From positions 620,001 to 684,000 of the forward strand of contig NZ_CP021032.1 of assembly GCF_002117485.1 (NCBI RefSeq): a stretch of DNA of 64,000 nucleotides, given 5' to 3'. Positions 10,092 through 44,989 of this stretch are shown piece after piece. Origin of the DNA: Rhizobium sp. NXC14. Lineage in GTDB: Bacteria; Pseudomonadota; Alphaproteobacteria; Rhizobiales; Rhizobiaceae. Under the pieces are notes generated by a model, which was not told the origin of the DNA, made no database searches, and saw only the letters and a list, made by a program, of their open reading frames with translations. Position 1 is the first letter of the stretch; each line of letters opens with the position of its first letter. A program made the position numbers and the translations under genes.

Positions 10092-10160
10092 GATGGTTTC
10101 GCCTCACATGAAAGGGACCGTCCCTAGCATAGCGCAAAGAGCGAGGCCAGCGAGCCGATC

Positions 10161-11060: not shown

Positions 11061-11860
11061 AGCAGCACGCCTCCATGAAGCGAGGGAAAGGAGGCCCACA
11101 GCTTTTTCGTATAGGCGTGTTTCGGCGTCCTGTAGATCGCCTTGGCGCCGTTCTGTTCGACAAGCTTGCCCGCAAGCATGATGCCGATTCGGTCGCAGAA
11201 CTGCACCATCAGCCCGAGATCATGGGTGATGAACAGCACGGAGAAGCCAAAGCTGCGGCGTAGCTCGTTGATCCGCTGCAGGATTTCGCGTTGAACGACG
11301 ACGTCGAGCGCCGTCGTCGGCTCGTCCATGACGACCAGCTTCGGATCGAGCGCCATGCAGATGGCAATGACGATGCGCTGGCGCATGCCGCCGGAAAACT
11401 GGTGCGGGTAGTCGCGCATTCGGTCCGGCGCGATGTCGACCAGCTTCAGCATCTCGGCGGTGCGCTCGCGGGCTTGCGCTCGGCTCATGCCCTTATGGGT
11501 ATGCAGCACGTCGTAAAACTGGGCCTCGATGCGCAGCACCGGGTTCAGCGAATTCATGGCGCTCTGGAAGACCATCGCCACCTCGCGCCAGCGGAAGGCG
11601 GCAAGCGCCTGCCGGTCGAGACCGAGCACGTCTCGGCCGTCGAGCAGGATCCGGCTCTCCTTGCGGATCAGCGCCGGCGGCCTGTGCAGGCGGCTGATGG
11701 CGAAGGCGATGGTGCTCTTGCCGCAGCCGGATTCGCCGGCAAGGCCGAAAACTTCGCCGGGCGCGACATCGAAGCTGACGTCGTCGACGGCGCGAAAATC
11801 CTTCTCCTCGCCAATATAATCGATGGTGAGGTTCCTCACCGAAAGCAGCGGCTGCGTCAA
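11057..11860 (-). CDS. ABC transporter ATP-binding protein, DppD-like
   Basis: First ATPase subunit of the importer. Walker A is GESGCGKST, the signature FSGGMRQRI and Walker [14 protein letters not shown] choose the TTG at 11860 because it overlaps the stop of the upstream permease gene (TTGA) and because the conserved start of the domain ([13 protein letters not shown]) follows directly. The frame continues upstream inside the permease gene but there resembles no protein. The resulting 267-residue length is shorter than classic DppD (about 320), mainly because the C-terminal tail after [12 protein letters not shown] is short, so the usual iron-sulfur-type tail is missing. Confidence 0.88.
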
Positions 11861-12735
11861 AGGCGGCCCTCCCCGGAACGGATGAGCAGCGACCAGCGCT
11901 TCAGATGATTGCCGGTGCGCAAACGCGGGTTGGCGATCTCGTCGACGGCGAAGTTCAGCAGCGACATGCCGATGCCGAGGAAAGCAAGCGCGAAGCAGGG
12001 GGTAAGGATATCCCACCAGGCGCCTACCGAAAGGGCGGAGGCCTTCTGGGCATTGTAGAGCATCGTTCCCCAGGAGATCGCTTTGGGATCGCCGAGGCCC
12101 AAGAATTCAAGCGTCGCCTCGGTGATGATGGCGAAGATGACGCTGCCGATGAAATTGATGCCGACGATCGAGATCACGTTGGGGAAGATCTCGAATGTCA
12201 TGATGCGCCATTGCGGCTCGCCCATCATCTCGGCCGATTTGACGAAATCCTTCTGCTTGACGGAAAGCGTCTCGGCGCGGGTGACGCGCGCGCCCCAGGC
12301 CCACGAAGTGGCGCCGAGGATGAGGGCGATGACGACGGGGCTTGCCTGACCGATGAAGGCGGCGAGCACGAGCAGCAGCGGCAGGTTGGGAACGACGAGC
12401 TCCATATTGGTGAAGAAGCTGATGACTTCGTCGGTCTTGCCGCCGCGATAACCGGAAATGATGCCGAGCGCGGTGCCGGCGAGGGTAATCAGCAGCCCGG
12501 CGCCGAAGCCGACGGCAAGAGAGGTGCGGGCGCCGTAGAGCAGCCGGGCGAAAACATCCTGGCCGATGCGGGTGGTGCCGAGCAGATGGTCGAGCGACGG
12601 CGGCTGGTGCGGCCTGCCGGTGCGGGCGGCGGGATCGTATTGCGTCAGCAGCGGCGCTGCGATCGCGACGACGACGATGAAAGCGATGATGATGAGGCCG
12701 ACAAGGGCCTTGCGGTTTCGAAGCAGGCTTTTCAT
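11857..12735 (-). CDS. ABC transporter permease, DppC-like
   Basis: The 292-residue membrane subunit has the usual N-terminal helix (KALVGLIIIAFIVVVAIAAPLL), a short periplasmic stretch containing HLLGTTRIGQDVFARLLYGARTSL, and five further helices. The coupling loop EAA-like motif (SAEMMGEPQWRIMTFEIFPNV) contacts the ATPases. The HLLGTDxxGRDVxSR-like signature is diagnostic of the DppC/OppC family. It starts only 1 bp after the stop of the partner permease, and its own stop overlaps the DppD-like gene, showing tight translational coupling through the operon. Confidence 0.92.
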   Translation of the reverse strand: MKSLLRNRKALVGLIIIAFIVVVAIAAPLLTQYDPAARTGRPHQPPSLDHLLGTTRIGQDVFARLLYGARTSLAVGFGAGLLITLAGTALGIISGYRGGKTDEVISFFTNMELVVPNLPLLLVLAAFIGQASPVVIALILGATSWAWGARVTRAETLSVKQKDFVKSAEMMGEPQWRIMTFEIFPNVISIVGINFIGSVIFAIITEATLEFLGLGDPKAISWGTMLYNAQKASALSVGAWWDILTPCFALAFLGIGMSLLNFAVDEIANPRLRTGNHLKRWSLLIRSGEGRL

Positions 12736-12736
12736 C

Positions 12737-13714
12737 TCAAGCTCCCTTCAGCCGCGGGTCGAGCAAGATATAGCTGACGTCGACGATGAAATTGGCGATC
12801 AGCATGGTCGCGGTCATGATGAGGAGCTGGCCCTGGATGACTGGATAATCGCGGGCGAGGATCGCCTGGTACAGAATATTGCCGAGGCCGGGATAGTTAT
12901 AGACGACTTCGGTCACCAGCGAACCGCTGAGGATGGTGCCGATGGCGATCGCCAGGCTGGAAACGGTCGGCAGCAGGGCGTTGCGCGCCGCATACCACAG
13001 CATCACGTGCCGGTCGGAAAGGCCCTTGGCGCGTGCCATGACGATATAGTCCTCGCCGAGCAGATTGATCATGTTGTTGCGCATGGTGACGGTGAAGCCG
13101 CCGATCAGCACTGTGCAGAGCGTCACCATCGGCAGGATGCCGTGATAGGCCACACTGCCGATATAATGCAGGCTGAAGGCCGGATCGAGCGACGGGTCGG
13201 CGGCATAGCCGTTCGGAAACCAGCCGAGCGTGAAGCCGAAGATGAAGAGCACGATCAGCGAGGTGACGACGGCTGGCACCGAGGTCGCGAAGATCGCGCC
13301 GACGGAGACGATGACGTCGAACCGGCTGCCGCGCCGCCAGGCGGCGACGATGCCGAGAAAGGTGCCGAGCGCGAAGCTGACGACCGTCGCTGTTCCCATC
13401 AGGCCGACGGTCCAGACGAGAGCGTGGCCGAGCACCGAGGTGACGGGCAGCGGGAAATATTTGATCGAGCGACCGAGATCGCCGGTGAAGATGCTGCCGA
13501 GATAGGTGAGATATTGCCGCCAGAGCGGGCCGTCGACGAAGCCGAAGGTGAGCTTCAGCGCCTGCAGGCTTTCCGGCGGCAATTCGGTGCCGGCGCTTGA
13601 GAACATGATCTGCACGGGATCGCCCGGCATCAGCCGGGGCAGAAAGAAATTGATCGTCGCTGCCGCAATGAAGGCTGCAATATAGAAGACGAGGCGGCGA
13701 AGCAGGAAAGCCAT
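12737..13714 (-). CDS. ABC transporter permease, DppB-like
   Basis: The membrane subunit, 325 residues from ATG 13714, has an N-terminal helix followed by the family motif FFLPRLMPGDPVQ. It ends with the conserved VVYNYPGLGNILYQAILARDYPVIQG segment and a final helix reading toward DVSYILLDPRLKGA, all typical of DppB/OppB permeases. The ATG is chosen over an upstream in-frame start at 13765 because a GGAG site lies just before it and because the longer frame would leave only 6 bp after the binding-protein stop. It forms a heterodimeric channel with the next gene product. Confidence 0.92.
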   Translation of the reverse strand: MAFLLRRLVFYIAAFIAAATINFFLPRLMPGDPVQIMFSSAGTELPPESLQALKLTFGFVDGPLWRQYLTYLGSIFTGDLGRSIKYFPLPVTSVLGHALVWTVGLMGTATVVSFALGTFLGIVAAWRRGSRFDVIVSVGAIFATSVPAVVTSLIVLFIFGFTLGWFPNGYAADPSLDPAFSLHYIGSVAYHGILPMVTLCTVLIGGFTVTMRNNMINLLGEDYIVMARAKGLSDRHVMLWYAARNALLPTVSSLAIAIGTILSGSLVTEVVYNYPGLGNILYQAILARDYPVIQGQLLIMTATMLIANFIVDVSYILLDPRLKGA

Positions 13715-13771
13715 GGGAACTCCGTCGTGACGAGAGCGGCGTTTCAAGACCGCTCCCGAGACCATGATGCT

Positions 13772-15418
13772 TTACTTCACAGGTTCCAGGGCGAGCAGGT
13801 TCAGCAGACGTGCCGGATTGGTGCGCGAGATCGACGGATTGACGAAGGGGTTTTCCTTGGTCGACCAGCCGGTGAAGCGCTTGGTGTTGTACTGATACCA
13901 GTTCGGATTGTTGAAGACTGGAATCATCGGCATGTTTTCGGCGACGATGCGCTGTGCCTTGTTCATCGCCTCCTTCTGCGTGGCAAGGTCTGCTGTCTGG
14001 GTGAATTCGGTGACGAGTTTCTCGACCTCCGGGTTGAACCAGCGCTGCGCGGTGAAGCGGGTCTTGCCCTTGTCCGAAGCGCTGAAGGCGCGCTTGTAGG
14101 GATAATAAGGTGAGGCCGAAGCCGGCAGGCTGTTGATCGCCGCATCGAACTTGCCGGCGATGAGGTTGCCGGTCCAGACGGCTTCCTCCGGTGTTTCGAT
14201 CTTGGCGTCGATGCCGACCGCCTGCATGCCTTCGACGGCGATGTTGACCGTGTCGACCCAGTCCGTCCAGGAGTTCGGGACGATGATCGAGAAGGAGATC
14301 TTGCTGCCGTCGGGATTGTCACGGAAGCCGTCGCCGTCCTTGTCCTTGTAGCCCGCCTCGTCGAGCAGGGCCTTGGCGGCGTCGGCGTCATAGGTCGCGA
14401 ACTTGCCGAAGTCGGCCTTGACGGACGGATCCGCCCAGCTCTTGTAGAGCTCGCCCATCAGGCCGGGGTCTTCGTTCAGCGTCGGATAGCCGTAGCCGGC
14501 GACGTCGATCATCGTCTTGCGATCGAGCGCCATGCCGATAGCACGGCGGAATTTCACATCGTTGAAGGCCTTTCTATTGTTCTCGTTCGCCGTTTCCAGA
14601 TTGAACAGGAAGGCGACCATGCTGCTCGGCGAATACCAGTAATGGAAATGCGCCGGGTCCTTCGCGACATAGACGTTGTCGATATCGGGAATGAAGGAGA
14701 CACCCCAGTCGAGCGTGCCGTCGGCGGTCGCCGTCAGGATCTGGTTGTTGTCGGCAAGCTGCGGGAAGCGAATGCAGTCGACCTTCAGATGCGCGTTGTC
14801 CCAGTAATTCGGGTTGCGGCACTGGTCGTAGGTCTGGCCGGTGAAGCGCGGCACCTCGGTCAACGGCCCGCTGCCGACCGGGTTCTCGTTGGCGAAGGTG
14901 ACAGGATCGGCGACATCCTTCCAGACATGTTCGGGAACGATCGGCAGCTGCGAGATCTGCTCGGCAGCAAGCGAGCTCGGATTGGCGAGCGCGAAGCGCA
15001 CCGTCTGGCCGTCGACGGCCTGCACGTCGGTGACGAAGGTCCAGATGCTGACGAAGTCGAGCGCCGGGAACTTTTTCAGATAATCATAGGTGAACTTGAC
15101 GTCGGCTGCCGTCAGCGGTTTGCCATCAGACCATTTCAGGTTCGGGCGCAGCTTGAAGTCGATGCTCTTCAGGTCGTCGGAGAGCTTGAAGCTTTCGGCC
15201 AGGCGATAGACCGGCTTGTTGCTGTCGAAGCGATTGAAAATAACCAGCGGCTCATAGATGAAATCGAGCGTCGATTGGCGCGCCGAGGTCTGGTTGAACG
15301 GGTTGAAGTTGCGAACCCAGGTCGTGGCCGGTTCGATATTCGCCGTCAGGATCGCCTGCGCCATGGCGGATCCCGAAAGCAGCGTCAGTGCGGCGGCTGC
15401 AAATAGATATTTTTTCAT
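13772..15418 (-). CDS. ABC transporter substrate-binding protein, family 5
   Basis: The 548-residue periplasmic binding protein starts with a clear Sec signal (MKKYLFAAAALTLLSGSAMAQA, cleavage after AMA). It has family-5 landmarks such as LKWSDGKPLTAADVKFTYDYL and GSGPLTEV. An insert reading DKDGDGFRDNPDGS looks like a calcium-binding loop. The family includes binding proteins for peptides but also for cellobiose, chitobiose and other beta-linked oligosaccharides. The gene for a NagZ-like glycosidase lies directly upstream, which favours an amino-sugar saccharide or muropeptide as the substrate; that is inference. A GGGGAA site precedes the ATG. Confidence 0.92.
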   Translation of the reverse strand: MKKYLFAAAALTLLSGSAMAQAILTANIEPATTWVRNFNPFNQTSARQSTLDFIYEPLVIFNRFDSNKPVYRLAESFKLSDDLKSIDFKLRPNLKWSDGKPLTAADVKFTYDYLKKFPALDFVSIWTFVTDVQAVDGQTVRFALANPSSLAAEQISQLPIVPEHVWKDVADPVTFANENPVGSGPLTEVPRFTGQTYDQCRNPNYWDNAHLKVDCIRFPQLADNNQILTATADGTLDWGVSFIPDIDNVYVAKDPAHFHYWYSPSSMVAFLFNLETANENNRKAFNDVKFRRAIGMALDRKTMIDVAGYGYPTLNEDPGLMGELYKSWADPSVKADFGKFATYDADAAKALLDEAGYKDKDGDGFRDNPDGSKISFSIIVPNSWTDWVDTVNIAVEGMQAVGIDAKIETPEEAVWTGNLIAGKFDAAINSLPASASPYYPYKRAFSASDKGKTRFTAQRWFNPEVEKLVTEFTQTADLATQKEAMNKAQRIVAENMPMIPVFNNPNWYQYNTKRFTGWSTKENPFVNPSISRTNPARLLNLLALEPVK

Positions 15419-33039: not shown

Positions 33040-33137
33040 CACATCCGTGATACGACATTCCGCCGCGTCTCCACCCATCATCTTCTCCGGCCTGCCGCCG
33101 CAGCTCAGGGCGCATGCCACTTCTTGAAAGTCCAGCC

Positions 33138-34565
33138 ATGACTATCTCCGATATTGCGAAAATCCGCGTCGAGCATGACCTGATAGGCGATCGCGACGTG
33201 CCGGCCTCGGCCTATTATGGCGTACATACGCTGCGTGCGGTGGAGAATTTCCCGATTACCGGTCAGACCCTGCGTGAATCGGCGGATCTGATTGCGTCGC
33301 TCGCCGCGATCAAGCAGGCAGCGGCTCAGGCCAATGCAAGCCTCGGCCTTCTCGATCGGGCACGCGCCGACGCCATCATCGCCGCCTGTGTCGAGATTCG
33401 CGACGGCGCGCTGCACGAGCACTTTGTCGTCGATCTCATTCAGGGCGGCGCCGGCACCTCGACCAACATGAATGCCAACGAGGTGATTGCGAACCGGGCG
33501 CTTGAAATCATGGGTTATGACAGGGGCGATTACCAGCACCTGCATCCGAACGAGCATGTCAATCTCTCGCAATCCACCAACGACGTCTATCCGACGGCGC
33601 TGAAGCTCGCCGCCTGGATCGGCGTTCACCGTCTGGTCGATGCCATGGCCGTCCTGCGCCGGTCGTTCGAGGCCAAGGCGGTCGAGTTCGCCGACGTCCT
33701 CAAGATGGGCCGCACCCAATTGCAGGACGCTGTGCCGATGACGCTCGGACAGGAATTCGGGACCTACGCGCTGATGCTCGCGGAGGACGAGGCGCGCCTT
33801 GCCGAAGCCGTCTCGCTGATCCGCGAGATCAACCTCGGCGCCACGGCTATCGGCACCGGCATCACCGCCCATCCCCAATATGCGGCGCTGGTGCGCGAGC
33901 GCCTGTCCGATATCGTCGGCGTCGATCTGGTGACCTCACCGGATCTGGTGGAGGCGACGCAGGATTGCGGATCCTTCGTGCAGCTGTCGGGCGTGCTCAA
34001 ACGCGTGGCGGTCAAGCTGTCCAAAACCTGCAACGACCTGCGGCTTTTGTCTTCGGGGCCGCGTGCGGGCCTGAACGAGATCAATCTGCCGGCGCGCCAG
34101 GCCGGCTCGTCGATCATGCCGGGCAAGGTCAACCCGGTCATCCCGGAAGTCGTCAACCAGGTCGCTTTCGAGGTGATCGGCAACGACGTGACGATCACCA
34201 TGGCCGCGGAAGCCGGCCAGCTTCAGCTGAACGCCTTCGAGCCGGTGATCTTCTACAGTCTCTACCGCAGTCTTAGCCACCTGACCAATGCCTGCCTGAC
34301 GCTCGAAGCCAATTGCATTCAAGGCATAACCGCCAACCGTGACCGGCTGCGCCAGACAGTCGAGCAGTCGATCGGCATCGTGACGGCGTTGAACCCCTAT
34401 ATCGGCTATCGCAATGCCACGGAGGTCGCGCTGGAGGCGCATCATTCGGGCCGTGGGGTCTACGAAATCATTCTCGAGCGCGGCCTGATGCAGAAGGAGC
34501 ATCTCGATGCGGTCTTGCGCCCGGAAACGCTGACCCGGCCGAGCGAGAGGCTTTCCTTCTCGTAG
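33138..34565 (+). CDS. ansB: aspartate ammonia-lyase (aspartase)
   Basis: The 475-residue enzyme converts L-aspartate to fumarate and ammonia, completing asparagine catabolism to a TCA intermediate. The signature loop GSSIMPGKVNPVIPEVVNQV, the Thr/Ser-rich substrate pocket AGTSTNMNANEVIANRALE and the HLHPNEHVNLSQSTNDVYPTALK segment are classical for the aspartase/fumarase superfamily. The GSSIMPGKVNP motif alone does not separate aspartase from fumarase C, but the ans context does. Start ATG 33138 is preferred over an ATG at 33114 because the family begins with the RVEHDLIGDRDVPASAYYG block shortly after. Confidence 0.93.
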   Translation: MTISDIAKIRVEHDLIGDRDVPASAYYGVHTLRAVENFPITGQTLRESADLIASLAAIKQAAAQANASLGLLDRARADAIIAACVEIRDGALHEHFVVDLIQGGAGTSTNMNANEVIANRALEIMGYDRGDYQHLHPNEHVNLSQSTNDVYPTALKLAAWIGVHRLVDAMAVLRRSFEAKAVEFADVLKMGRTQLQDAVPMTLGQEFGTYALMLAEDEARLAEAVSLIREINLGATAIGTGITAHPQYAALVRERLSDIVGVDLVTSPDLVEATQDCGSFVQLSGVLKRVAVKLSKTCNDLRLLSSGPRAGLNEINLPARQAGSSIMPGKVNPVIPEVVNQVAFEVIGNDVTITMAAEAGQLQLNAFEPVIFYSLYRSLSHLTNACLTLEANCIQGITANRDRLRQTVEQSIGIVTALNPYIGYRNATEVALEAHHSGRGVYEIILERGLMQKEHLDAVLRPETLTRPSERLSFS

Positions 34566-34650: not shown

Positions 34651-35580
34651 TCACGCCGCCTTGGCTTGCGGCTTGGCCGCCTTGACGTGGGTTGTGCTGC
34701 GGCGGCCATCGATGCTGACGGGAACATCGCCGTCAACCGTGGCGCGGCGGACGACCCGGTGCTGGTCGCCATAATCGTTGACGGCATAGTGCTGGGTGGC
34801 GCGATTATCCCAGATCGCGACGTCGCCGGCTCTCCAGCGCCAGCGCACGGTATTTTCCGGGGCAGTGACGTAGGACTGGAACACCTCGTAGAGTTTTACG
34901 GAGTCGCTCTTCGACAGGCCGACAAGGCGCTGAACGAAGTTGCCGAGCAGCAGCGATCTTTCGCCGGTTTCCGGATGGACACGCACGACCGGATGCTCGG
35001 TCTCGTAGATGGTGGAGGTGAAAACTTCCTCGAAATGCTTCTTCTCTTCGGCGGTGGCGCGCGGGCGAACGGCGGCATAATCATAGGCATTGCTGTGAAT
35101 GGCCCACAAATTGTCCGCCAGCAGTTTGAGCGGCGCCGGCAGGCTTTCATAGGCGGCATGGGTATTGGACCAGATCGTGTCGCCGCCGGCCGCCGGGATG
35201 ACGACGCCGCGCAGGACGGAGAATTTGGGATAGGCGTCGACGAAGGTAACGTCGGTATGCCACTGGTCCGCTCTGCCGCCGCCGCGGCTGGAATCGAGAT
35301 TGAGGATGGACGCCGTGCCGGCGACCGGTCCCTGGGTCGGATGCGGCACAAGATCGCCGAGGCGGCGTGCGAAGGCTTCCTGGGCGGAATCGTCAAGATG
35401 TCCCTGATCGCGGAAAAAGATGACCTTGTGTTTCAAGAGAAGCTGATTGATGGCCGTCACCGTTGCATCCGAAAGATCTCCACCAAGGCGGATACCCTTG
35501 ATTTCGGCTCCGACACGGCCGGTCAGCGGCACGACGTCGGACTCGGGAATGATCTGATTGACGAGAACCGGATTGCTCAT
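34651..35580 (-). CDS. TauD/TfdA family alpha-ketoglutarate-dependent dioxygenase
   Basis: The 309-residue enzyme has the HxD iron site in QWHTDVTF, the distal His in NRATQHYAVNDYGDQHRVVRR with the co-substrate Arg, and the conserved GAEIKGIRLGGDLSD start. Members oxidise taurine, alkyl sulfates, 2,4-D or related compounds; substrate preference cannot be assigned. ATG 35580 is preceded by CAGGAG at a good distance. It stands alone, with the plus-strand aspartase gene converging. A role in sulfonate or sulfate-ester use would match the choline sulfatase elsewhere in this window, but that is speculative. Confidence 0.87.
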   Translation of the reverse strand: MSNPVLVNQIIPESDVVPLTGRVGAEIKGIRLGGDLSDATVTAINQLLLKHKVIFFRDQGHLDDSAQEAFARRLGDLVPHPTQGPVAGTASILNLDSSRGGGRADQWHTDVTFVDAYPKFSVLRGVVIPAAGGDTIWSNTHAAYESLPAPLKLLADNLWAIHSNAYDYAAVRPRATAEEKKHFEEVFTSTIYETEHPVVRVHPETGERSLLLGNFVQRLVGLSKSDSVKLYEVFQSYVTAPENTVRWRWRAGDVAIWDNRATQHYAVNDYGDQHRVVRRATVDGDVPVSIDGRRSTTHVKAAKPQAKAA

Positions 35581-35882
35581 GGAAATCTCCTGTTGATATT
35601 GGAAGAAGTCGGAAGGTCGCTTGAGCCAGATGAAGGATTCATCGGGCGTTCGAAATCTCATCGTTGAAAGTCGACAGGGCTATGGAACCTTACAATCTAC
35701 AAAATCTGTAGACAATAATTTCTAATTTTGACTGTTTTCCTGAAACGGCCATCTTCGATTTTCCTCGCCGGGAGGCGAGGCTGGCGGGCGTTGTCATTTC
35801 TTCGTATGTTCCGCCGTCAGCGTGGGATTGCCGAGCAAGTGATGCTTGAGGCCGTAGACCGGCGCGCGGAAAGGAACTTTCG

Positions 35883-36290
35883 ATGGCAACAGTTAAACTC
35901 CTGTCGGACCAAGAGGCGGCAGCCATTCCGGCCGTGCAAGCCGTGTTTGATGACATCAGGGCGACACGCAAGACCGATTTCATCAACAATTTCTGGCGTG
36001 CTCTCGCAAACGATCCCGCAAATCTCAAGCGGGTGTGGGAGACGCTCAAATCGGTCATGACTGTCGAAGGCGCCATCGATCCGTTGACGCGGGAGATGAT
36101 CTACATCGCCGTGTCGACGGCCAATGCCTGCCAGTACTGCATTCAATCCCATACCGCAGCCGCCCGGGCGCGCGGAATGACCGATGCCCAACATGGCGAA
36201 CTCCTGACGATCATCGGCCTTGCCGCACAGACAAATCATCTCGCTCTCGCCATGCAGATTCCCACAGATCCGGAATTCGAGGTGCGATAG
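35883..36290 (+). CDS. carboxymuconolactone decarboxylase / AhpD-like protein
   Basis: The 135-residue helical protein has the AhpD-like redox motif CQYCIQSH (Cys-x-x-Cys with the conserved His) and the preceding REMIYIAVSTANA helix. In this family the two cysteines form a disulfide that reduces a partner such as a peroxiredoxin, or the protein acts as a general thiol peroxidase. The size is typical of stand-alone domains. It lies just before the repeat that bounds the fructan locus and reads toward the GH32 gene. Confidence 0.87.
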   Translation: MATVKLLSDQEAAAIPAVQAVFDDIRATRKTDFINNFWRALANDPANLKRVWETLKSVMTVEGAIDPLTREMIYIAVSTANACQYCIQSHTAAARARGMTDAQHGELLTIIGLAAQTNHLALAMQIPTDPEFEVR

Positions 36291-36421: not shown

Positions 36422-38083
36422 TTACTCCCCGCTGAAAGCGCTCACATGTGCCTTTGACAGAATAACAAGCTTGTCCGGTCTGACGTTGAGATAGTTGCGT
36501 CGCGTGCCGCAGACAGCTCCTCCGTCAGCAAAAATCTCTAAGATGCCCTTATCGTGGATGACTCTCAGATCCGTCGCATCGGCAATCATCGCGGCGTAAC
36601 GGATCGATCCGTCATCTTGTGGCAGCTGCACGGAGATACTTTGATCTTCCACCACGATGGAAAATGACAATCGTCCGGCCTCGGTCGCGGTGATCCTTGT
36701 TCCGTCGAGCATTCCGTTCAGTCGGATATCGACGGGCGCTTCGTCAAGAACATATCTGCCGGGTTCAGCGGAAGGCAGAGGCGCATGTGTGAGGGCCTCC
36801 TCCACTTCGTCAGCGGGTCTCATACATATCCTGTTGCGCGCATCCAGCGATAGCTGGCGGGGTAAGGACAACTCGCCGGAATACGGCGATCCGGCAGGCT
36901 TGCGGAACTGCCAATTGAAGAGCCACGCAAAGGAAAGCTGCCTGCCACCCGTCGCGAAGCTCTGCATCGCATAAAAGTCGCTGCCGAAATCGAGGAGTTG
37001 CAGCGCATCGGAGTCCGGAATGAAGCGGTCATCGACGAAACTTCCGACGAGCCCATAGAGCAGGTTGTGTCGCCCGCTGTCAGGATCACAGTGTCCGACA
37101 AGTCCCATGATCAGCACCCATTTGCCGTCGATGGGGAAAAAGTCGGGGCATTCAACTGCTCTGGCGCCCTGCTCGCGGAAGAAGGGCGGTGCACGGTAGA
37201 GCGGTCCCAGGTATTTCCACTCCAGCAGATTCTCCGAACCGTAAAGCAAGACTGCCGGGTCGCCATGAATAGAGGCGCCGAGCACCATGCGATAAGCGCC
37301 GGAGGCTTCATCCCACCACACCTTTGGATCGCGGAAGTCGTGCTCAACTCCTTCGGGGCGCTGCTCGAGCACGGTCGAGATGCTTTCCGCCTTGATCATC
37401 CGCCGGTCCGGCCGGGCGATCTTCTGTATCTCTCGATAACCTTTGAAAAGGTCATAGGCGGGCAGGCGTTCCGTATAGAAGAACATCAGGCTGCCGTCCC
37501 TGTCCTGAAATGCATTGCCGGAGAATGCGCCTCCGGTCGCACCGAGACGCCAGAGGTTCTGCTCCGGATGGAGAAAAACCGGCATGTGTGTCCAGCTGAA
37601 CAGGTCAGGGCTGGTAGCATGCCCCCAGTGCATTGGCCCCCACTCGCCGCCGCATGGATGGAATTGATAAAACAGGTGCCAGCAGTCGGCGATCCTGCAG
37701 AGACCCACAGGATCGTTCATCCAGTTGCGACAAGGAGAAAAATGAAGTCGAGGCCGCTGAGGATCGCTTCGCAGCCATGAGCCAATTTCCTTTCCTGCGC
37801 GAATTAGAATTTCATCCGTGCTGAATTCCCATAGCTTTATGCCGGCCTCCGCAACGGTTGCCGGATCGTAGGTGTAGGCCCAGAGGAATGCTTCCGGCTG
37901 ATCCCATTCAACGACAACGCTGCCGGCCTCGCGGTGGTGATAGGCATAGTATGATGGATGAGCTTCGAAAGCGGGCACATGCCAGAGGGTCTCACCATCT
38001 TGCGAAATACTGACGGCCCCGGGGCCAACGGCCCAGAATTCCAAACGCTCGCCCGAAACAAAAGAGACAGTCGCTTTAGCCAT
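36422..38083 (-). CDS. GH32 fructosidase (inulinase/invertase family), cytoplasmic
   Basis: The 553-residue enzyme cleaves beta-fructosidic bonds. It has the GH32 triad: nucleophile Asp124 in NWMNDPVG, transition-state Asp in FRDPK (251-254) and acid/base Glu311 in ECPDFF. The N-terminal 110 residues before the catalytic propeller form an unusual extension (FWAVGPGAVSISQDGETLWHV, YAYHHREAGSVVVEW) that could be a beta-sandwich. There is no signal peptide. ATG 38083 is used; a TTG at 38095 is the alternative. It ends the operon downstream of the GH91 gene and most likely hydrolyses the disaccharide that enzyme makes, giving fructose. Confidence 0.9.
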   Translation of the reverse strand: MAKATVSFVSGERLEFWAVGPGAVSISQDGETLWHVPAFEAHPSYYAYHHREAGSVVVEWDQPEAFLWAYTYDPATVAEAGIKLWEFSTDEILIRAGKEIGSWLRSDPQRPRLHFSPCRNWMNDPVGLCRIADCWHLFYQFHPCGGEWGPMHWGHATSPDLFSWTHMPVFLHPEQNLWRLGATGGAFSGNAFQDRDGSLMFFYTERLPAYDLFKGYREIQKIARPDRRMIKAESISTVLEQRPEGVEHDFRDPKVWWDEASGAYRMVLGASIHGDPAVLLYGSENLLEWKYLGPLYRAPPFFREQGARAVECPDFFPIDGKWVLIMGLVGHCDPDSGRHNLLYGLVGSFVDDRFIPDSDALQLLDFGSDFYAMQSFATGGRQLSFAWLFNWQFRKPAGSPYSGELSLPRQLSLDARNRICMRPADEVEEALTHAPLPSAEPGRYVLDEAPVDIRLNGMLDGTRITATEAGRLSFSIVVEDQSISVQLPQDDGSIRYAAMIADATDLRVIHDKGILEIFADGGAVCGTRRNYLNVRPDKLVILSKAHVSAFSGE

Positions 38084-38193
38084 TTGGAGACGCAATCTGA
38101 GTGAAGAACGGCCGGTCCGAAGACTGGCCCAGGTTTTTCTTGGAAGAGGACTTGTGGTCCCACGACCGGCGGGAGAGGCCTGGCGGCTGCGGT

Positions 38194-39555
38194 CTATTGC
38201 CCAGGAGCCGGAGTGCCCCTGAATGCATTTACCGTTCGGTCCATCACCACTTGTTCGACGTTTCCGCAGTCCAGGACCGTATTCCCCACTGAGTTCCTTT
38301 GCACCAGCACGGTCGTTACGTCGCGCGAAGTCGAATTCCCGATTGAAAGCAATGCGCTCACTTGTGTTGAAAAACAGGCGCTGTTTGGCGCATCGCTCCC
38401 GGCTTCTTGAGGTATTTCGGTGGTGGCCACAATGTGGTTGTTGGCTATGTAGTTTCCACTGCCGGAAACTACATTGATCATGACAGGTTTTGCTGCGGGA
38501 GGCTTGATATATTGGGTGTCAATGGTGTGCGAAATATGGTTCGCGATCAGCGAATTGTTGCTGCCGTCAATCTGCAGAAGCCCAAACAGATCATCCAAGC
38601 CATTGTCGTACTTCTGCATCGGCGCCCATGGCTCGCGATCTCGCAGAAAGTGATTTGAGGAGACCAAATTCTCGCAGCAGTTAGCAGCAAACACCAACAT
38701 TCCGGGATAGAAGGAATGGAACCTATTTCCCGTGACCGAGGAACGCACCACGCCGGAGAAATGGAGACTGCTTGCTCCTCGCGGAAATACGTTGTTCGAG
38801 GATACCAGAATGCCCGCGTAATTCTCGGCGTAAATTGAGTGTCCCCTATATCCGGCGCCGACAAAATTATTTGCTATTCTTGAGGCCTGCCCCATACCTT
38901 TCAGCTCGATACAGTTGCCGCACTCTGCGATGAAATTATTATCTATCGCGAGCGCATCTGCATCATGAACAGTGACTCCATGCTCCAGGTAGATAAGGCC
39001 CATACCGGTTATTCGAAATGAGTCATTGGCGCTGCCTACATAGATTCCCGTTTTGCCATTCCTGTATGTGTTTTCTGCGTCGTCTTGCCCCGAACCATCA
39101 TCGATGAAGTGCAAGCCATCGATGCAAAAGTCAGCAAACTCCACAGAGCTTATACGAGGATTTCCATTGCGCTTGACATAAAACGCGGCACCAGCAGCCT
39201 CAACGTCTGTGGCCTCTGGAGAAATGTCCACAAGGATTCGACTTCCGCCCGGCCACACCTCGTGCCAGTGGGTCAACTCGCCTGCTGGTGTGTTGAAGCG
39301 GATGCTCGACGACGTAAAACCATGCCCAGAGCCAACGATCTTCAGATAGCTCACGTCTATAACGACTTGAGTGACAAGACGATAATCGCCTGGCGGTATA
39401 TAGATAACTGATCCAGGTTTTCCGCCGTCATTTGCATCGACTACCGCTTGCCTGTTCTTGATATCCGCAATGATGTTATTGATGACGGCGCCAATATCCT
39501 CACGGGGATTGCCTGATGGATACTTCGTAACGTCGTAACAGTTTTCGCTAATCAT
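38194..39555 (-). CDS. GH91 family enzyme: difructose-anhydride hydrolase or inulin fructotransferase
   Basis: The 453-residue parallel beta-helix protein matches inulin fructotransferases and DFA hydrolases (GH91) along its length: SVIYIPPGDYRLVTQVVIDVSYL, GKTGIYVGSANDSFRITGMG and IAECGNCIELKGMGQA. The Asp/Glu pair that lies 11 residues apart in studied enzymes is present (Asp200 in ADAL, Glu211 in AECGNC). IFTases are usually secreted with a signal peptide; none is seen here, so the protein should be cytoplasmic, as expected for a DFA hydrolase. ATG 39555 is chosen because GGAG stands 6 bp before it, and an ATG at 39561 touches that site. The DNA is visibly more AT-rich than its surroundings. 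Confidence 0.88.
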   Translation of the reverse strand: MISENCYDVTKYPSGNPREDIGAVINNIIADIKNRQAVVDANDGGKPGSVIYIPPGDYRLVTQVVIDVSYLKIVGSGHGFTSSSIRFNTPAGELTHWHEVWPGGSRILVDISPEATDVEAAGAAFYVKRNGNPRISSVEFADFCIDGLHFIDDGSGQDDAENTYRNGKTGIYVGSANDSFRITGMGLIYLEHGVTVHDADALAIDNNFIAECGNCIELKGMGQASRIANNFVGAGYRGHSIYAENYAGILVSSNNVFPRGASSLHFSGVVRSSVTGNRFHSFYPGMLVFAANCCENLVSSNHFLRDREPWAPMQKYDNGLDDLFGLLQIDGSNNSLIANHISHTIDTQYIKPPAAKPVMINVVSGSGNYIANNHIVATTEIPQEAGSDAPNSACFSTQVSALLSIGNSTSRDVTTVLVQRNSVGNTVLDCGNVEQVVMDRTVNAFRGTPAPGQ

Positions 39556-39604
39556 TATCATCTCCGCGGACAGCGAGGGTTAATCTTGTCTTTTGGCTGT
39601 GCCA

Positions 39605-40747
39605 TCACCAGATGCTGGTACGGGTGCCCGGGTCAAAGAAGTGAAGTTCTTCGGCATCGACAGCGATGCGCGCGATGTCACCTGCTCGCACTGTGCTCTT
39701 AGGGGAAAAACGGGCTACAGCAGCTTTTTCGTCGCCGATGTCGGCGATGGCGTCCGGGTCGCCAGCATCCACCCAGGGTGCATCGATATTCAGATGCACC
39801 ATGGATTCAGAACCCAGCGCCTCAACAAGAGTGACCGGGGCCGAGATCTCGGCCGAAGAAGGCCGGATTGAAGCGTCATTCATGTGCTCCGGCCGGATGC
39901 CGAGAAGGATTTGACGGTGAGACGCACCGTTGAGCGAGGGACGGCATTCGAAAACCCGGTCAGGAATTTCGAAACTGTTGCTGCCCAGGATCACCGTCCT
40001 TCCATTCAGGACGGCCTCGTACAAGTTCATCGAGGGCGATCCGATAAAGGCCGCAACAAAGACGTTGTCGGGGCGACTGTACAGGTTCTGCGGTGTGTCG
40101 ACTTGCTGCAACACGCCGCCCTTCATGACAGCGACACGGTCGCCCATCGTCATTGCCTCGACCTGATCGTGAGTGACGTAGATCGTGGTGACGTTGAGTT
40201 TTCTCTGGAGGCTGGCAATCTCGGCGCGCATCTGCACACGCAGTTTTGCATCGAGATTGGACAGAGGTTCATCCATCAGGAAGGCGGACGGCTGGCGGAC
40301 GATCGCCCGACCCATGGCGACGCGCTGCCGCTGGCCGCCCGAGAGCAGCGCCGGTTTGCGGTCGAGCAGAGCCGTCAGTTCGAGGATGCGCGCGGCCTCG
40401 TCCACGCGGCTGGCAATGTCGGATTTTGGCAACCCCGCCATCAGCAATGGAAAGGCGATGTTTTCGCGCACGGTCTTGTGCGGGTACAGCGCGTAAGACT
40501 GAAAGACCATGGCGATGTCGCGATCCTTCGGATCGACATGGTTGACGATCCTGTCCCCGATCCTGAGTTCGCCGCTCGAAATGCTCTCAAGGCCGGCGAT
40601 CATCCGAAGCGCCGTCGATTTCCCGCATCCCGAGGGACCGACAAACACCATGAACTCACCATCCCTGATGTTGAAACTCAGGTCGTGTAGCGCATGAAAG
40701 CTGTTGCCGTAGATCTTGTTGACGTTGCGCAGTTCTATACCGGCCAT
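39605..40747 (-). CDS. ABC sugar transporter ATP-binding protein, MalK/UgpC type
   Basis: The 380-residue protein has the ATPase domain (Walker A GPSGCGKST near residue 38, Q-loop FQSYALYPHKTV, signature LSGGQRQRV, Walker B FLMDEPLSNLD) and a C-terminal OB-fold regulatory domain (about 240-380) typical of the MalK/UgpC group. It should power the permease pair encoded just upstream. The GH91 gene begins 49 bp after its stop, on the same strand. The other MalK-type ATPase of the window (58807-59940) is a close relative, but each belongs to its own operon. Confidence 0.94.
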   Translation of the reverse strand: MAGIELRNVNKIYGNSFHALHDLSFNIRDGEFMVFVGPSGCGKSTALRMIAGLESISSGELRIGDRIVNHVDPKDRDIAMVFQSYALYPHKTVRENIAFPLLMAGLPKSDIASRVDEAARILELTALLDRKPALLSGGQRQRVAMGRAIVRQPSAFLMDEPLSNLDAKLRVQMRAEIASLQRKLNVTTIYVTHDQVEAMTMGDRVAVMKGGVLQQVDTPQNLYSRPDNVFVAAFIGSPSMNLYEAVLNGRTVILGSNSFEIPDRVFECRPSLNGASHRQILLGIRPEHMNDASIRPSSAEISAPVTLVEALGSESMVHLNIDAPWVDAGDPDAIADIGDEKAAVARFSPKSTVRAGDIARIAVDAEELHFFDPGTRTSIW

Positions 40748-40760
40748 GTCTTAGCCTCCC

Positions 40761-41597
40761 TCATCCTTTTACAGCGCCGAAAGTCAGGCCACCGACGATC
40801 TGCTTTTGAAGTGCGAGCGTTACGATGATGACGGGCAGTGAATAGAGCACGGCTGCCGCCGTCATCGCTCCCCAGGCCAGGCCATAGACCGAGTTGTATT
40901 CAGCAATGACGATCGGTGCCGTTTTGGTCGACTCTGACGTCAGCAGCAGTGCATAGAGGAACTCGTTCCAGCTCGTGATGAAGGTAAAGAGCGCGGTAAC
41001 GGCGATTCCGCCCGTCATGATCGGAAGAATAACCTTCAGAAAGGCCTGGAAACGGGTGCAGCCGTCCATGCGCGCCGCCTCTTCCAGATCCTTCGGAACG
41101 CCTTCGAAGAAGGCTGCCATGAGAAGAAGCGCAAGAGGTACCGCGGCTGATGTGTGGGCGAGCACCAGACCGGGAACGGTATCCAGCAGACCGAGCGACT
41201 TCAGAAGCTGAAACAATGGCACGCCGAGCGACACCGAGGGCACCATGCGCGTGACCAGCGCGAAAAGCAGGAACAGGGTGGTGATCCGGCGCCTATAGTG
41301 GGTCGCGACATAGGCGGCCGGAACCGCCACAGCGAGGGAAAGGATGGTTGTCAGCACCGCCACTATCAGCGAGCTTGCGAAGGCCCGCGGCAGGGTCGAC
41401 GATTGCAGGACATCGCGAAAATTCTCGAAAGAGATCACGACGGGAAAGAAGCTCGGCGGAATCTGCTGGACATCCGCTGCCGGCTTGATCGACGTCATGA
41501 GCAGATAGACGTAAGGCAGCGCATAGGACAGGACGAGGACGAACGCGGCGGCATTGATCACGATGCCGTTGAAATTGAGGCGGCGCGCACTACGCAT
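40761..41597 (-). CDS. ABC sugar transporter permease, MalG-like
   Basis: The 278-residue membrane subunit has six predicted helices, beginning with NAAAFVLVLSYALPYVYLLMTSI. The EAA loop is EEAARMDGCTRFQAFLKVILPIMTGGIAV, and the protein ends QKQIVGGLTFGAVKG, a common MalG-type end. Its start overlaps the end of the partner permease gene by 8 bp. The pair should form the channel for the sugar recognised by the binding protein encoded at 42532-43791. Confidence 0.93.
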   Translation of the reverse strand: MRSARRLNFNGIVINAAAFVLVLSYALPYVYLLMTSIKPAADVQQIPPSFFPVVISFENFRDVLQSSTLPRAFASSLIVAVLTTILSLAVAVPAAYVATHYRRRITTLFLLFALVTRMVPSVSLGVPLFQLLKSLGLLDTVPGLVLAHTSAAVPLALLLMAAFFEGVPKDLEEAARMDGCTRFQAFLKVILPIMTGGIAVTALFTFITSWNEFLYALLLTSESTKTAPIVIAEYNSVYGLAWGAMTAAAVLYSLPVIIVTLALQKQIVGGLTFGAVKG

Positions 41598-42471
41598 GGA
41601 CCGGCCTCCATATCTTCCAATAGGCAGCAGCAGCCAGAGCCATCATGACGATCAGAAACAGCGTGCCGGAGGCCGAGGCCTCGCCGAGATCGCCGAAGCG
41701 CACCATGCGCTGATAGATGTTCATCGAAAACACTTCAGAAGCGTGGTTGGGGCCACCCTGCGTCTGAATCCAGATGAGGTCGAAGGTCTTGGCCGCATCC
41801 ACCCCACGCACGATGACGACGACGGCGATCACCGGGCGCATCAGTGGCAGCGTGACATGCCAGAAGCGCTTGAACGCGTTCGCGCCGTCGATCCGCGCGG
41901 CCTCGAGCAGGTCTTTGGGAATGTTTGTCAATCCGGCATAGGAGACGAGGGCGACAAAGGATGTCGTCAGCCAGATATCGGCGAAAGAGACGGAATAGAT
42001 GACGATATCTTCGTCGGACAACCAGGCAATCGCATCGGGATCGCTGATGACGCCCAGATGGAGGAGCCCGTAGTTCAAGATGCCGATGTTCCCGACCAGG
42101 AGAAAGCGCCACAAGAGGCCGGCGACAATGGGCGGCACCATTAATGGCAGCGTGAAGATCGTGCGGTGCCAGCGCGATTGACCGGGGAGCGCCGTGAACA
42201 GCAGCGCGGCGCAGAAACCGAAGGTAAATTCGAAGAACAGCGCAAAGATCGAATACTGGATTGTTCTGAATGCGCTTTCCGCGACACGCTTCGAGGTTAG
42301 CGCGTCGATATAGTTCTTGAGCCCGATCCATTCTCGTATGTGGGGAGTAATGGTGTCGACCTTAAAAAAGGAATCGAACACCAAAAGCCCTACCGGGTAT
42401 GCGACTAGCAAGCCAAGGATGGCGAGGGCTGGCGCAAGCATGCACAGCACGAATCGGTCTTCACCCGACAT
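41590..42471 (-). CDS. ABC sugar transporter permease, MalF-like
   Basis: The 293-residue subunit has an N-terminal helix (FVLCMLAPALAILGLLVAYPVGLLVFDSFF) and the EAA loop LEAARIDGANAFKRFWHVTLPLMRPVIAVV, followed by helices ending near LFLIVMMALAAAAYWKIW. It is the first of two permease genes of the fructan operon and lies 60 bp after the binding-protein gene. Order binding protein, MalF-like, MalG-like, MalK-like is standard for carbohydrate CUT1 transporters. Confidence 0.93.
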   Translation of the reverse strand: MSGEDRFVLCMLAPALAILGLLVAYPVGLLVFDSFFKVDTITPHIREWIGLKNYIDALTSKRVAESAFRTIQYSIFALFFEFTFGFCAALLFTALPGQSRWHRTIFTLPLMVPPIVAGLLWRFLLVGNIGILNYGLLHLGVISDPDAIAWLSDEDIVIYSVSFADIWLTTSFVALVSYAGLTNIPKDLLEAARIDGANAFKRFWHVTLPLMRPVIAVVVIVRGVDAAKTFDLIWIQTQGGPNHASEVFSMNIYQRMVRFGDLGEASASGTLFLIVMMALAAAAYWKIWRPVHA

Positions 42472-42531
42472 GGCGCTCTCCGAAAGCTGATGATGCGAGG
42501 AGGACCACCCGTCCTCCTCGCCGCCGAGGGA

Positions 42532-43791
42532 CTAGTCGAGGATGTCTTGGATCGTTTCCTTGGCGTCCGTCAGGACCTTGCCAACATCCGCTTTGCATGT
42601 CAGGGCCTGCTGCACCGCTGGCAGAACCGCTTCGTCGACAATTTCCTGATATTTTTCGTTCATCGGACGGCCTTGCGTCGCAGGAGCGCCTAACGTCTCA
42701 AGCAGCGGCGTGAAATGCTCATAACCGGGCTTGCTGGCATAGCCATTATAGGCCGAATTCGTCGCAGCCAATCCAAGCGGCGCTTCGATACCAAGAGCAT
42801 TGTTGGCGATCGCGAAGGCTATGAACTTCTTGGCCGCGTCCTTGTGCTGGGAGGTCGACGGAACGACATTGTACCAAGGACCCGGAATTGCCGCGATTCC
42901 TGCATCGCCAGCCAGCATCGGGGCGACGCCGACCTTTCCGCTGACCTTGGAATCGGCGGGCGTCATCTTGTAGGCGTGCGCCCAGAATTTCATCATCGCC
43001 GTCTTGCCTTGATAGAACAGGTTCTGAGCTTCGCCCCAGCCAATCTCGTTGACGTTTTCGGGCACGGAATGATCGATGCAGTGAGGCGCGATGTAGAATT
43101 CGAGCGCCTTCCTATGCGCTTCGTTGTCGATGATCACCTTCCCATCCTTGTCGAGGATCACACCTGGCGAGCCCGCCTGAAGCACATGTGCCATCCACTC
43201 TTCGGAGAAGCTGCCGATGGTGTCGGTGCCCCAAAAGTCAGTCTTGCCGTCACCATCGGTGTCTCGGGTGAAGAATGTTGCGATGTCGCGCCATTGCTGC
43301 CAAGTCTTCGGCGGGGCGAGGGGATAACCATATTTTGCCTGGAATGCTTTCTGTTCTTCCGGCTTGTCGAAGAGGTCCTTGCGATAAAAAACAATTTCGG
43401 CATTGGCCCAAGCAGGCATGCCGATCAGTTTGTCGCCGATCTTCGCGTCGGCAAGCAAGGCAGGCGGCAGGTCCTTGCGAACCGCGTCGGTGAAGAGCGG
43501 CGCGAGGTCTTCGACATGGCTTGCGAATTTCGCGTTCCACACGACGTCGATCGTTACCACATCGAACGCCGATGAGCCGGAGGCGATTTCGGCGGAAAAT
43601 TTGTCGAAGACGCCCTGATAGGGAACGACGGTGAAGTCCACCTTGATACCGGTCTCGGCGGTAAACTTCTCCGCGGCTGCCTTCTGCAGCATTTCGCCGC
43701 CGCCTTCCACGAGGACATTGATGGTTTCGGCCTTGACGGAGGCCGCAATGCAAACGAACGCGAGCGCGCTGGCGCCAAGCAGTTTTTTCAT
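42532..43791 (-). CDS. ABC sugar transporter substrate-binding protein, family 1
   Basis: The 419-residue protein has a Sec signal (MKKLLGASALAFVCIAASVKA, cleaved before ETINV) and the opening AAAEKFTAETGIKVDFTVVPYQGVFDKFSAEIASG characteristic of CUT1 binding proteins. ATG 43791, behind GAGGAATT, is used; the frame is open to 43851 but would place the signal internally. Being first in the operon with GH91 and GH32 genes, it probably binds a fructose-containing di- or oligosaccharide such as a difructose anhydride, which is inference from context. Its promoter region carries the triple operator at 43862-43919. Confidence 0.92.
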   Translation of the reverse strand: MKKLLGASALAFVCIAASVKAETINVLVEGGGEMLQKAAAEKFTAETGIKVDFTVVPYQGVFDKFSAEIASGSSAFDVVTIDVVWNAKFASHVEDLAPLFTDAVRKDLPPALLADAKIGDKLIGMPAWANAEIVFYRKDLFDKPEEQKAFQAKYGYPLAPPKTWQQWRDIATFFTRDTDGDGKTDFWGTDTIGSFSEEWMAHVLQAGSPGVILDKDGKVIIDNEAHRKALEFYIAPHCIDHSVPENVNEIGWGEAQNLFYQGKTAMMKFWAHAYKMTPADSKVSGKVGVAPMLAGDAGIAAIPGPWYNVVPSTSQHKDAAKKFIAFAIANNALGIEAPLGLAATNSAYNGYASKPGYEHFTPLLETLGAPATQGRPMNEKYQEIVDEAVLPAVQQALTCKADVGKVLTDAKETIQDILD

Positions 43792-43861
43792 GAATTCCTC
43801 CCTTGTTCCGCCGGAAGCACTTGCCTCGGGCTGTTCCATCGTTGGGACCATAGGCGCGCTA

Positions 43862-43919
43862 TGACGACGTTGTCAATTGCAATTGTCGACGTTGTCAGAA
43901 AAATATGTCGACGTTGTCA
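43862..43919 (+). promoter_or_regulatory. three tandem LacI-type operator-like sites, 22-bp spacing
   Basis: The 14-bp sequence TGWCGACGTTGTCA occurs three times, at 43862-43875, 43884-43897 and 43906-43919, always 22 bp apart, which is about two helical turns. The first copy is a near-perfect palindrome and the other two are identical to each other. A further palindrome CAATTGCAATTG lies between copies one and two. The sites lie between the divergent binding-protein and LacI genes. Confidence 0.75.
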
Positions 43920-43963
43920 TGCGTGTAGTTTACAACAGACCCGCATCAGGAGAATTAGCGGAC

Positions 43964-44989
43964 ATGGTGAGCATCGTCAGCGTCGCGAAAGCGGCCGGGG
44001 TTTCGAATAAAACAGTCTCTCGCGTCATCAATGGCGAGCCCTACGTGACTGAGGAAACCCGGGAGAGGGTGGAAAAAGCCATTCGGGACCTCGGCTATAT
44101 CCCGAATATGGCGGCGCGCCTCATACGATCCAGCCGTTCCAACACCTTTGGGATTATCACCGATTATGTTTCCACGACGCCTTATTCGGTGGATATTGTC
44201 CGCGGAATTCAAGACTGGGCCAATGCGAATGGGAAAACCATCCTGATAGCCAACACCGGTGGTTCTTCCGAGCGAGAGGTGGAAATCTGGAAAATGTTCC
44301 AGTCCCATCGCATTGATGGAGTCTTGTATGTAACCATGTACCGCCGCATTGTGGATCCGGAGACCGGCGATGTCAGCATTCCGACAGTGATGATAAACTG
44401 TCGGCCGCAAACAAGGGAGCTCCTGCCGTCCATCGAGCCCGATGATTATCAGGGCGCGCGAGACCTTACCCGGTACCTCCTTGAACGGGGTCATCGCAGA
44501 ATCGGCTACATCCGGCTCAATCCGATCCTATTGGGAGCCGAACTGCGCCTGGAGGCATTTCGCCGAACGACAAGCGAATTCGGTCTCACAGAGAACGACC
44601 TCTCTATCAGCCTTGGCATGGATGGACCTGTGGGGGCAGAAAACAACTACGTCTTTGCGGCAGCGACCGAAATGCTCAAACAAGACGACCGTCCGACCGC
44701 GATCATGAGCGGCAACGACGAAATGGCGATTCAAATCTACATTGCCGCCATGGCACTGGGCTTGCGAATTCCACAAGACGTCAGCATCGTCGGCTTTGAC
44801 GATTTTCGAACAGTCACCATGGCGCTAAAGCCAGAGCTGACCACAGCGGCGTTGCCATACTACGATCTCGGCCGAGAGGGTGCGAAGTGGCTGAACGATT
44901 TGATAGCGGGCGAGAAGATTTATCCGGGCAGTCGGGTTGTCTCTTGCAAACTGGTTGAACGTAGCTCTGCCGCCTTTGGCCCTCATTAG
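43964..44989 (+). CDS. LacI family transcriptional regulator of the fructan locus
   Basis: The 341-residue protein has the LacI helix-turn-helix and hinge at residues 1-60 (VSIVSVAKAAGVSNKTVSRVINGEPYVTEETRERVEKAI, then NMAARLIRSSRSNTFG), and a periplasmic-binding-protein-like effector domain (GIITDYVSTTPYSVDIVRGI and onward to PQDVSIVGFDDF). ATG 43964 is chosen since the HTH begins right after it and AGGAG lies upstream. It is divergent from the sugar operon and should bind the three sites in the shared promoter, releasing them when the imported sugar or its product binds. Confidence 0.93.
   Translation: MVSIVSVAKAAGVSNKTVSRVINGEPYVTEETRERVEKAIRDLGYIPNMAARLIRSSRSNTFGIITDYVSTTPYSVDIVRGIQDWANANGKTILIANTGGSSEREVEIWKMFQSHRIDGVLYVTMYRRIVDPETGDVSIPTVMINCRPQTRELLPSIEPDDYQGARDLTRYLLERGHRRIGYIRLNPILLGAELRLEAFRRTTSEFGLTENDLSISLGMDGPVGAENNYVFAAATEMLKQDDRPTAIMSGNDEMAIQIYIAAMALGLRIPQDVSIVGFDDFRTVTMALKPELTTAALPYYDLGREGAKWLNDLIAGEKIYPGSRVVSCKLVERSSAAFGPH

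Follow-up and report, generated by a model that had tools for sequence, protein, structure and literature searches.

Which sugar is imported and degraded by the locus at positions 36422-44989 of the window analyzed here (64,000 nucleotides of contig NZ_CP021032.1 of Rhizobium sp. NXC14), where the genes of a CUT1 importer, a GH91 protein and a GH32 protein share the minus strand and a LacI-family gene diverges from them? An earlier, sequence-only reading of this DNA had answered with a difructose anhydride (DFA) or a short fructan. The evidence assembled below upholds the anhydride and narrows it to DFA-III as the most likely substrate, perhaps with a short inulin oligosaccharide as a co-substrate, and the locus is very probably a DFA-III scavenging operon that combines import, ring opening, fructose release and LacI control. 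DFA-III, a cyclic sugar formed from plant inulin by other microbes, has been known chiefly for its industrial use as a prebiotic, for its occurrence in caramel and from a small number of bacteria that degrade inulin.

All seven genes of the earlier reading were recovered at the same positions and strands, with Pfam backing the assignments, while the gene starts were revised from the sequence, likely at ATG 43791 for the binding protein, 43964 for LacI and 38083 for GH32. Along the minus strand, the order is binding protein, two permeases, a MalK/UgpC-type ATPase, GH91 and GH32, ending at 36422. The permease genes overlap by 8 base pairs (bp) and the remaining intergenic gaps measure 60, 13, 43 and 110 bp (the 110-bp value takes GH32 to start at 38083), a spacing that fits one operon. 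The genome (G000) comprises 6.69 Mb in four contigs, the window lying on contig C3. The cassette is not a chance grouping, because its GH91 protein matches an Arthrobacter DFA-III hydrolase (DFA-IIIase) with an E-value of 4.7e-181 and all seven genes occur together in 32 of 41 related stretches, which were found by searching genome contigs with the window GH91 protein.

A cluster of adjacent GH91 DFA-IIIase, GH32 and ABC importer genes, the composition found in the window, has been published for DFA-III in Blautia (B. parvula NBRC 113351 and others), with the same proposed route from DFA-III through inulobiose to fructose (PMC11538131). Unlike the window, the Blautia clusters belong to a different phylum and some are described as adding a sugar kinase or a GH39 gene; the main text of that paper makes no mention of a regulator, LacI, an operator or an operon. 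The claim that no rhizobial locus of this composition had been characterized holds in part: none for DFA was found for rhizobia or agrobacteria in the literature surveyed by titles and abstracts, a coverage outside which most subscription journals lie, but the composition itself has been characterized in Blautia. The sequence-only reading was silent on that cluster, as it was on the GH91 lid and the tandem operators. What is new here is the operator array, the alphaproteobacterial spread and a lidless GH91 partner; the GH91, GH32 and ABC composition was already known. A report on a cyclic fructan of six units (PMC4835578) was not used, as it does not concern DFA-III.

The GH91 protein and its lid

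On its sequence, the window GH91 protein is assigned to the DFA-IIIase subfamily. Its phmmer score is 605 bits against the Arthrobacter DFA-IIIase structure 5zks and 360, 350 and 259 bits against three fructotransferase structures, and its BLAST identity is 61.3% to 5zks (A. chlorophenolicus) versus 47.5 and 48.8% to two inulin fructotransferases. In Pfam, the protein passes the cut-off of the NosD beta-helix family, and its match to the inulin-fructotransferase repeat PF18835 falls short of the threshold. A GH91 protein of Rhizobium aethiopicum is a close match (96% and 94%).

The lid of this subfamily is reported to enable the hydrolysis of DFA-III, and its removal turns the DFA-IIIase into a fructotransferase (PMC11538131). 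Among 298 aligned GH91 proteins (the best 120 of 2727 and the best 120 of 2591 protein matches, plus the loci), the lid region has 24-34 residues in 207 and 4-5 in the other 91, with no intermediates, and the lid cysteine column holds cysteine in 205 of the 207 lid-bearing proteins. The Arthrobacter DFA-IIIase, as checked on 5zks, shares the lid, its cysteine and the catalytic Asp/Glu pair with the window protein. The inulin fructotransferases 2inu and 9j4i are homologous over most of their length and have the same catalytic pair, but they have no lid and make DFA from inulin, unlike the type found in the window. The pair itself, Asp and Glu in all 298 proteins, had been noted as Asp200/Glu211; it is kept, but that numbering starts from the second methionine, and the first ATG gives D202 and E213. 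Mutagenesis of the equivalent residues in the A. aurescens DFA-IIIase, D207 and E218, has been reported (PMC4640833).

A tree computed with the lid columns omitted (120 non-redundant rows, quick search, no bootstrap) places the 61 lid-bearing rows on one side of a branch with a Shimodaira-Hasegawa-like approximate likelihood ratio test (SH-aLRT) support of 98. Both the window protein and the Arthrobacter DFA-IIIase are on that side, so the clustering with inulin fructotransferases that would have spoken against an anhydride hydrolase was not seen.

The protein begins MIMISENCYDVTKYP, and inspection by eye revealed no signal peptide, missed or otherwise, in agreement with the earlier reading. 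An N-terminal extension of at least 25 residues occurs in 1 of 164 lid-bearing proteins, where it is not signal-like by eye, versus 30 of 87 lidless ones, a comparison that leaves out 47 rows with a shortened N-terminus; an Arg-Arg pair lies within the first 35 residues of 28 of the 30 extended lidless proteins. No second GH91 gene was found in G000, and the window gene is the sole one of its family.

Probable operator array of the LacI-family regulator

The gap between the LacI and binding-protein genes contains three 14-bp near-palindromes (Table 1), which are probably the target of the LacI regulator. An alignment of this gap, made without reference to the motif from 35 gaps with a divergent LacI (32 distinct, the window and 31 others), agrees with the window at 95.2% over the 42 operator columns, 56.0% over the 16 spacer columns and 51.6% over the other 114 columns. 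At least two operator sites 19-23 bp apart are present in all 36 loci with a LacI orthologue, and three in a row at 20-22 bp in 39 of 47 sequences (41 loci, five other loci and the window), the array scan having covered loci of 6 kb or more.

The operator sites follow the genes when the layout changes. Where LacI is co-directional with the binding protein (L015, L018), each gene has its own operator pair; in a Martelella stretch (L029) the pair stands directly before GH91; and L022 and L023 have an additional pair before a second GH91. Two near-matching palindromes 19 bp apart were also seen beside a second LacI and ABC system that neighbors the cassette in L015, L018, L031 and L097.

In G000, the strict operator-pair pattern occurs only at the window array. 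It was found in 9 of 394 Rhizobiaceae and 4 of 397 Hyphomicrobiales genomes (the two samples overlap by 20 genomes), with 0 in every row of the backwards control. In both surveys the genomes with an operator pair are exactly those with a full-length GH91, a patchy set of the same 9 of 394 and 4 of 397, from which G251 (18.5 bits) and G644 (19.9 bits) are excluded as not full length. A LacI regulon beyond the operon was considered for G000 and rejected, since the pair is confined to the window array and single one-mismatch sites are too common (75 forward and 85 reverse, versus 35 and 36 in the control). One of these single sites falls within the window, at 49222.

The -35 box of a sigma-70-like promoter match for the importer and enzyme genes is overlapped by operator 1, and repression by LacI fits for this reason; the match is weak by itself, as 3.6 such sites would be expected in the region and the promoter scan gave 5. 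Terminator-like sites were not used as evidence, since 7.0 would be expected and only 5 were found.

Conservation, spread and variants of the cassette

In 29 of the 32 complete stretches the seven genes are adjacent. The other three, L015, L018 and L031, have their GH32 gene displaced by about 7-9 kb, beyond a second ABC system. Counted over all 41 stretches, the binding protein is present in 37, LacI (at least 55% identity) in 36, GH32 in 36 and the ATPase in 33. The genes flanking the cassette are common only to small groups of relatives, and the block is therefore sharp-ended. In a plasmid collection, GH91 matches occur in 84 of 72,556 records; the genera Rhizobium, Agrobacterium, Sinorhizobium and Pararhizobium account for 78 of these, and 30 of the 84 are typed as conjugative. 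The transporter around GH91 and GH32 is exchanged between lineages: an ABC system in rhizobia and on an Arthrobacter plasmid, a major facilitator superfamily (MFS) protein on a Citrobacter plasmid, and a mannose-type phosphotransferase system on a Latilactobacillus plasmid.

Several individual layouts were also recorded. On the Citrobacter plasmid (L070, about 7500-14300), MFS, GH91, kinase, GH32 and LacI genes stand a few kb from resistance genes. Three near-identical whole cassettes (L011, L012, L013) occupy three contigs of a single Sinorhizobium terangae assembly; the S. terangae plasmid record shows one cassette place only, and an assembly artefact is possible. In the Sinorhizobium loci L015, L018 and L031, and in L097, GH32 lies behind the neighboring second LacI and ABC system (about 11650-20300 in L015 and L018).

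Extended cassettes carry a lidless second GH91. On Agrobacterium pAt plasmids (Ach5 and a yarrow isolate), a lid-bearing GH91 is followed by a lidless GH91 and then GH32, the yarrow-isolate cassette additionally carrying a carbohydrate kinase. The cassette of G628, a genome from another Hyphomicrobiales family, comprises genes for LacI, an importer, a lidless GH91, a GH32, a PfkB kinase and a lid-bearing GH91, and in R. mongolense and R. multihospitium (L022, L023) the lidless GH91 is under its own operator pair, with a PfkB kinase adjoining in L022. The L022 protein shares 85.5% identity with its L069 counterpart and 86.8% with the L095 one, and the group forms its own long branch of 1.42 changes per column. 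These proteins retain the catalytic pair and have ten otherwise conserved positions changed. No signal peptide was seen in those of L022, L069 and L095; that of L073 is extended by about 30 residues at its start, where no signal is obvious. The window cassette lacks this second GH91. Two of the Agrobacterium isolates with extended cassettes come from Achillea, whose plant family has inulin-type fructans, an observation that is suggestive only.

Turning to the other products of the operon, the importer has the full CUT1 set, namely a binding protein, two permeases and one MalK-type ATPase with an OB/TOBE domain, and the regulator has the helix-turn-helix and sugar-binding domains of the LacI family. 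The binding protein is 31% identical to its nearest G000 paralogue and 48% to the binding protein beside the DFA-IIIase gene on an Arthrobacter plasmid; unlike in the window, no MalK-type ATPase gene was seen beside the importer on the Arthrobacter plasmid L071. The GH32 protein carries the catalytic motifs of its family (NDP, RDP and EC), and its predicted structure resembles GH32 folds, the structural matches spanning mainly residues 114-553; parts of 111-215 and 390-403 are modeled with low confidence (alignment depth 16 sequences). An extra beta-rich domain occupies about residues 1-105 (window 37740-38083 encodes residues 1-114), for which no Pfam match was obtained at E up to 1 and no PDB sequence match better than E 0.2. 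G000 encodes two GH32 proteins; inspection by eye revealed no signal peptide in either, and the other one (L099:1138-2859) has a similarly long N-terminus.

No sugar kinase was found in the window operon by a Pfam scan of nine proteins; contig C1 encodes a 38% homologue of the PfkB kinase of the extended cassettes. Beyond GH32, a gene at 35883-36290 runs in the opposite direction on the plus strand, and its counterpart in an R. etli record, matched by position and length, is a carboxymuconolactone decarboxylase. Farther out are a TauD-family dioxygenase (34651-35661, minus strand) and an aspartate ammonia-lyase-like gene (33114-34565, plus strand), which we place outside the operon because they adjoin the cassette only in its closest relatives (L009, L010, L040, R. 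etli).

Table 1. Coordinates of the features described, given in window positions, or by locus for the lidless GH91 genes
Feature	Position	Strand	Details	Basis
GH32 beta-fructosidase	36422..38083	-	553 aa, no signal peptide seen	PF00251 (GH32N) 1.2e-67, catalytic motifs, model
GH91 protein, DFA-IIIase type	38194..39561	-	455 aa	phmmer bits, tree
GH91 lid	38323..38418	-	residues 382-413 (32 residues); C396 equals C387 of Arthrobacter DFA-IIIase	alignment
GH91 catalytic pair	38923..38958	-	D202 and E213	equivalent to D207/E218 of A. aurescens DFA-IIIase
MalK/UgpC-type ATPase	39605..40747	-		ABC_tran, OB_MalK, TOBE_2; PRK11650 UgpC above cut-off
Permease 2	40761..41597	-		BPD_transp_1
Permease 1	41590..42471	-		BPD_transp_1
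CUT1 substrate-binding protein	42532..43791	-	419 aa, signal peptide by eye MKKLLGASALAFVCIAASVKAE	SBP_bac_1
Sigma-70-like promoter match for importer/enzyme operon	43847..43876	-	TTGACA-18-TATGGT	10/12 consensus
Putative operator 1	43862..43875	.	TGACGACGTTGTCA	14-bp near-palindrome in LacI-binding-protein gap
Putative operator 2	43884..43897	.	TGTCGACGTTGTCA, 22 bp from operator 1	14-bp near-palindrome
Putative operator 3	43906..43919	.	TGTCGACGTTGTCA, 22 bp from operator 2	14-bp near-palindrome
LacI-family regulator	43964..44989	+	341 aa	Pfam LacI and Peripla_BP_3
Lidless second GH91	L069:13520-14725		in or beside cassette
Lidless second GH91	L073:13368-14663		in or beside cassette
Lidless second GH91	L022:1820-3040		in or beside cassette
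Lidless second GH91	L095:8439-9641		in or beside cassette

Substrate, rival explanations and significance

The proposed course of events begins with uninduced LacI, which would occupy the three phased palindromes and close the operon promoter until an incoming difructose sugar, or its product, releases it. The CUT1 importer, whose carried sugar we infer to be DFA-III, would deliver this sugar to the cytoplasm, where the lid-bearing GH91 enzyme may open the ring to give inulobiose. GH32 would then cleave inulobiose to two fructoses, pulling the reversible GH91 step forward, and a fructokinase encoded elsewhere could take the fructose onward. In Blautia, DFA-IIIase and GH32 are reported to convert DFA-III to fructose together, the first step being reversible (PMC11538131). 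Since G000 has a single GH91 and no signal peptide visible on either GH32, it probably scavenges DFA-III made by others and does not itself seem to be a maker, presumably living on what inulin-degrading neighbors release. Arthrobacter strains, by comparison, are described as making DFA-III through an extracellular fructotransferase (PMC8605356), which G000 lacks.

Several points weigh against this account. At the thresholds used, 9 of the 41 stretches are without at least one gene, some of them ending at contig ends; the ATPase is among the missing genes in L033, L035, L044 and L049, and the Martelella stretch has a different ABC system and no orthologous importer. Four of the 41 loci (L019, L034, L042, L047) have no operator array. 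The co-occurrence of operators and GH91 comes partly from linked inheritance of one cassette, for which reason the contrast between site and spacer conservation is the better evidence for operator function. Across the Rhizobium and Sinorhizobium loci, identity is 48-94% for GH32 versus 84-96% for GH91, and GH32 may have been exchanged between cassettes or may evolve faster. Among binding proteins of solved structure, even the nearest ones are distant, and wherever a ligand is named it is a different sugar. A missing signal peptide does not decide the location of GH91 proteins in general, as one fructotransferase that has none is reported to be extracellular (PMC5448860) and 57 of 87 lidless proteins are likewise without a long N-terminus. 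Finally, the Blautia DFA-IIIase is reported to act on GF3, GF4 and inulin as well, with a Michaelis constant for DFA-III of 7.5 mM and an equilibrium that favors DFA-III at 59:41 (PMC11538131), properties that make a role in fructan use possible.

Among the alternatives, the substrate could be another difructose anhydride, DFA-I or a mixture in which DFA-III is one of several, which we consider unlikely. The lidless second GH91 of the extended cassettes could widen the range in this way, but G000 has none. Like the window, the DFA-I cluster of Bifidobacterium dentium unites LacI, GH32, an ABC importer and an anhydride hydrolase, which is intracellular there and putatively so here; unlike the window GH91, however, the Bifidobacterium hydrolase is a GH172 enzyme acting on DFA-I (PMC8605356). 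A search of G000 for GH172 (PF11175) gave no match, although it is uninformative in that no control genome matched either, and the Blautia DFA-IIIase is stated, as data not shown, not to hydrolyze DFA-I (PMC11538131).

Somewhat less likely still is that the importer takes up short inulin-type oligosaccharides (GF3-GF5, inulobiose), on which GH91 would have a side activity of the kind reported for the Blautia enzyme and which the operon GH32 would use. For such chains GH32 alone could suffice and GH91 would be superfluous; only an anhydride makes GH91 necessary, and DFA-III is favored over short fructans on this ground. The retention of the Asp/Glu pair, the lid and the lid cysteine in 205 of 207 lid-bearing proteins, together with the Martelella operator pair placed directly before GH91, also argues against a side activity. 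That GH91 is instead an exported inulin fructotransferase making DFA-III outside the cell is very improbable and was rejected on the lid and the tree position, the rarity of N-terminal extensions among lid-bearing proteins pointing the same way, even though some sources label close relatives "inulin fructotransferase (DFA-I-forming)" and one signal-less, DFA-I-forming fructotransferase has been reported as extracellular (PMC5448860).

With DFA-III as the probable substrate, a broader and more tentative picture can be drawn, in which this sugar would be a regular one of soil and root surfaces. Alphaproteobacteria would possess for it a transferable, single-purpose regulon, LacI with three-site phased operators, and would have recruited to it a fast-evolved lidless GH91 with a new intracellular activity, found in agrobacteria, some Rhizobium and another Hyphomicrobiales family, mostly without an N-terminal extension. 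Candidate activities of this protein, proposed as part of the same tentative picture, are the opening of another anhydride isomer and the cyclization of imported fructans.

A DFA-III pathway of this kind is already known in gut and soil bacteria, and the rhizobial operon is a further, well-marked example. Its function is hidden in R. etli CFN 42 (locus RHE_RS25870-RS25900), because the record labels the cassette genes "NosD", a copper protein name, and "UgpC", for glycerol phosphate; the paired operator motif, which picked exactly the GH91-bearing genomes in two surveys, serves as a DNA tag. That many nodule bacteria have, on plasmids and chromids, an operon dedicated to this import and hydrolysis, here in a genome that does not seem able to produce the sugar, suggests cross-feeding in soil on the breakdown of inulin.

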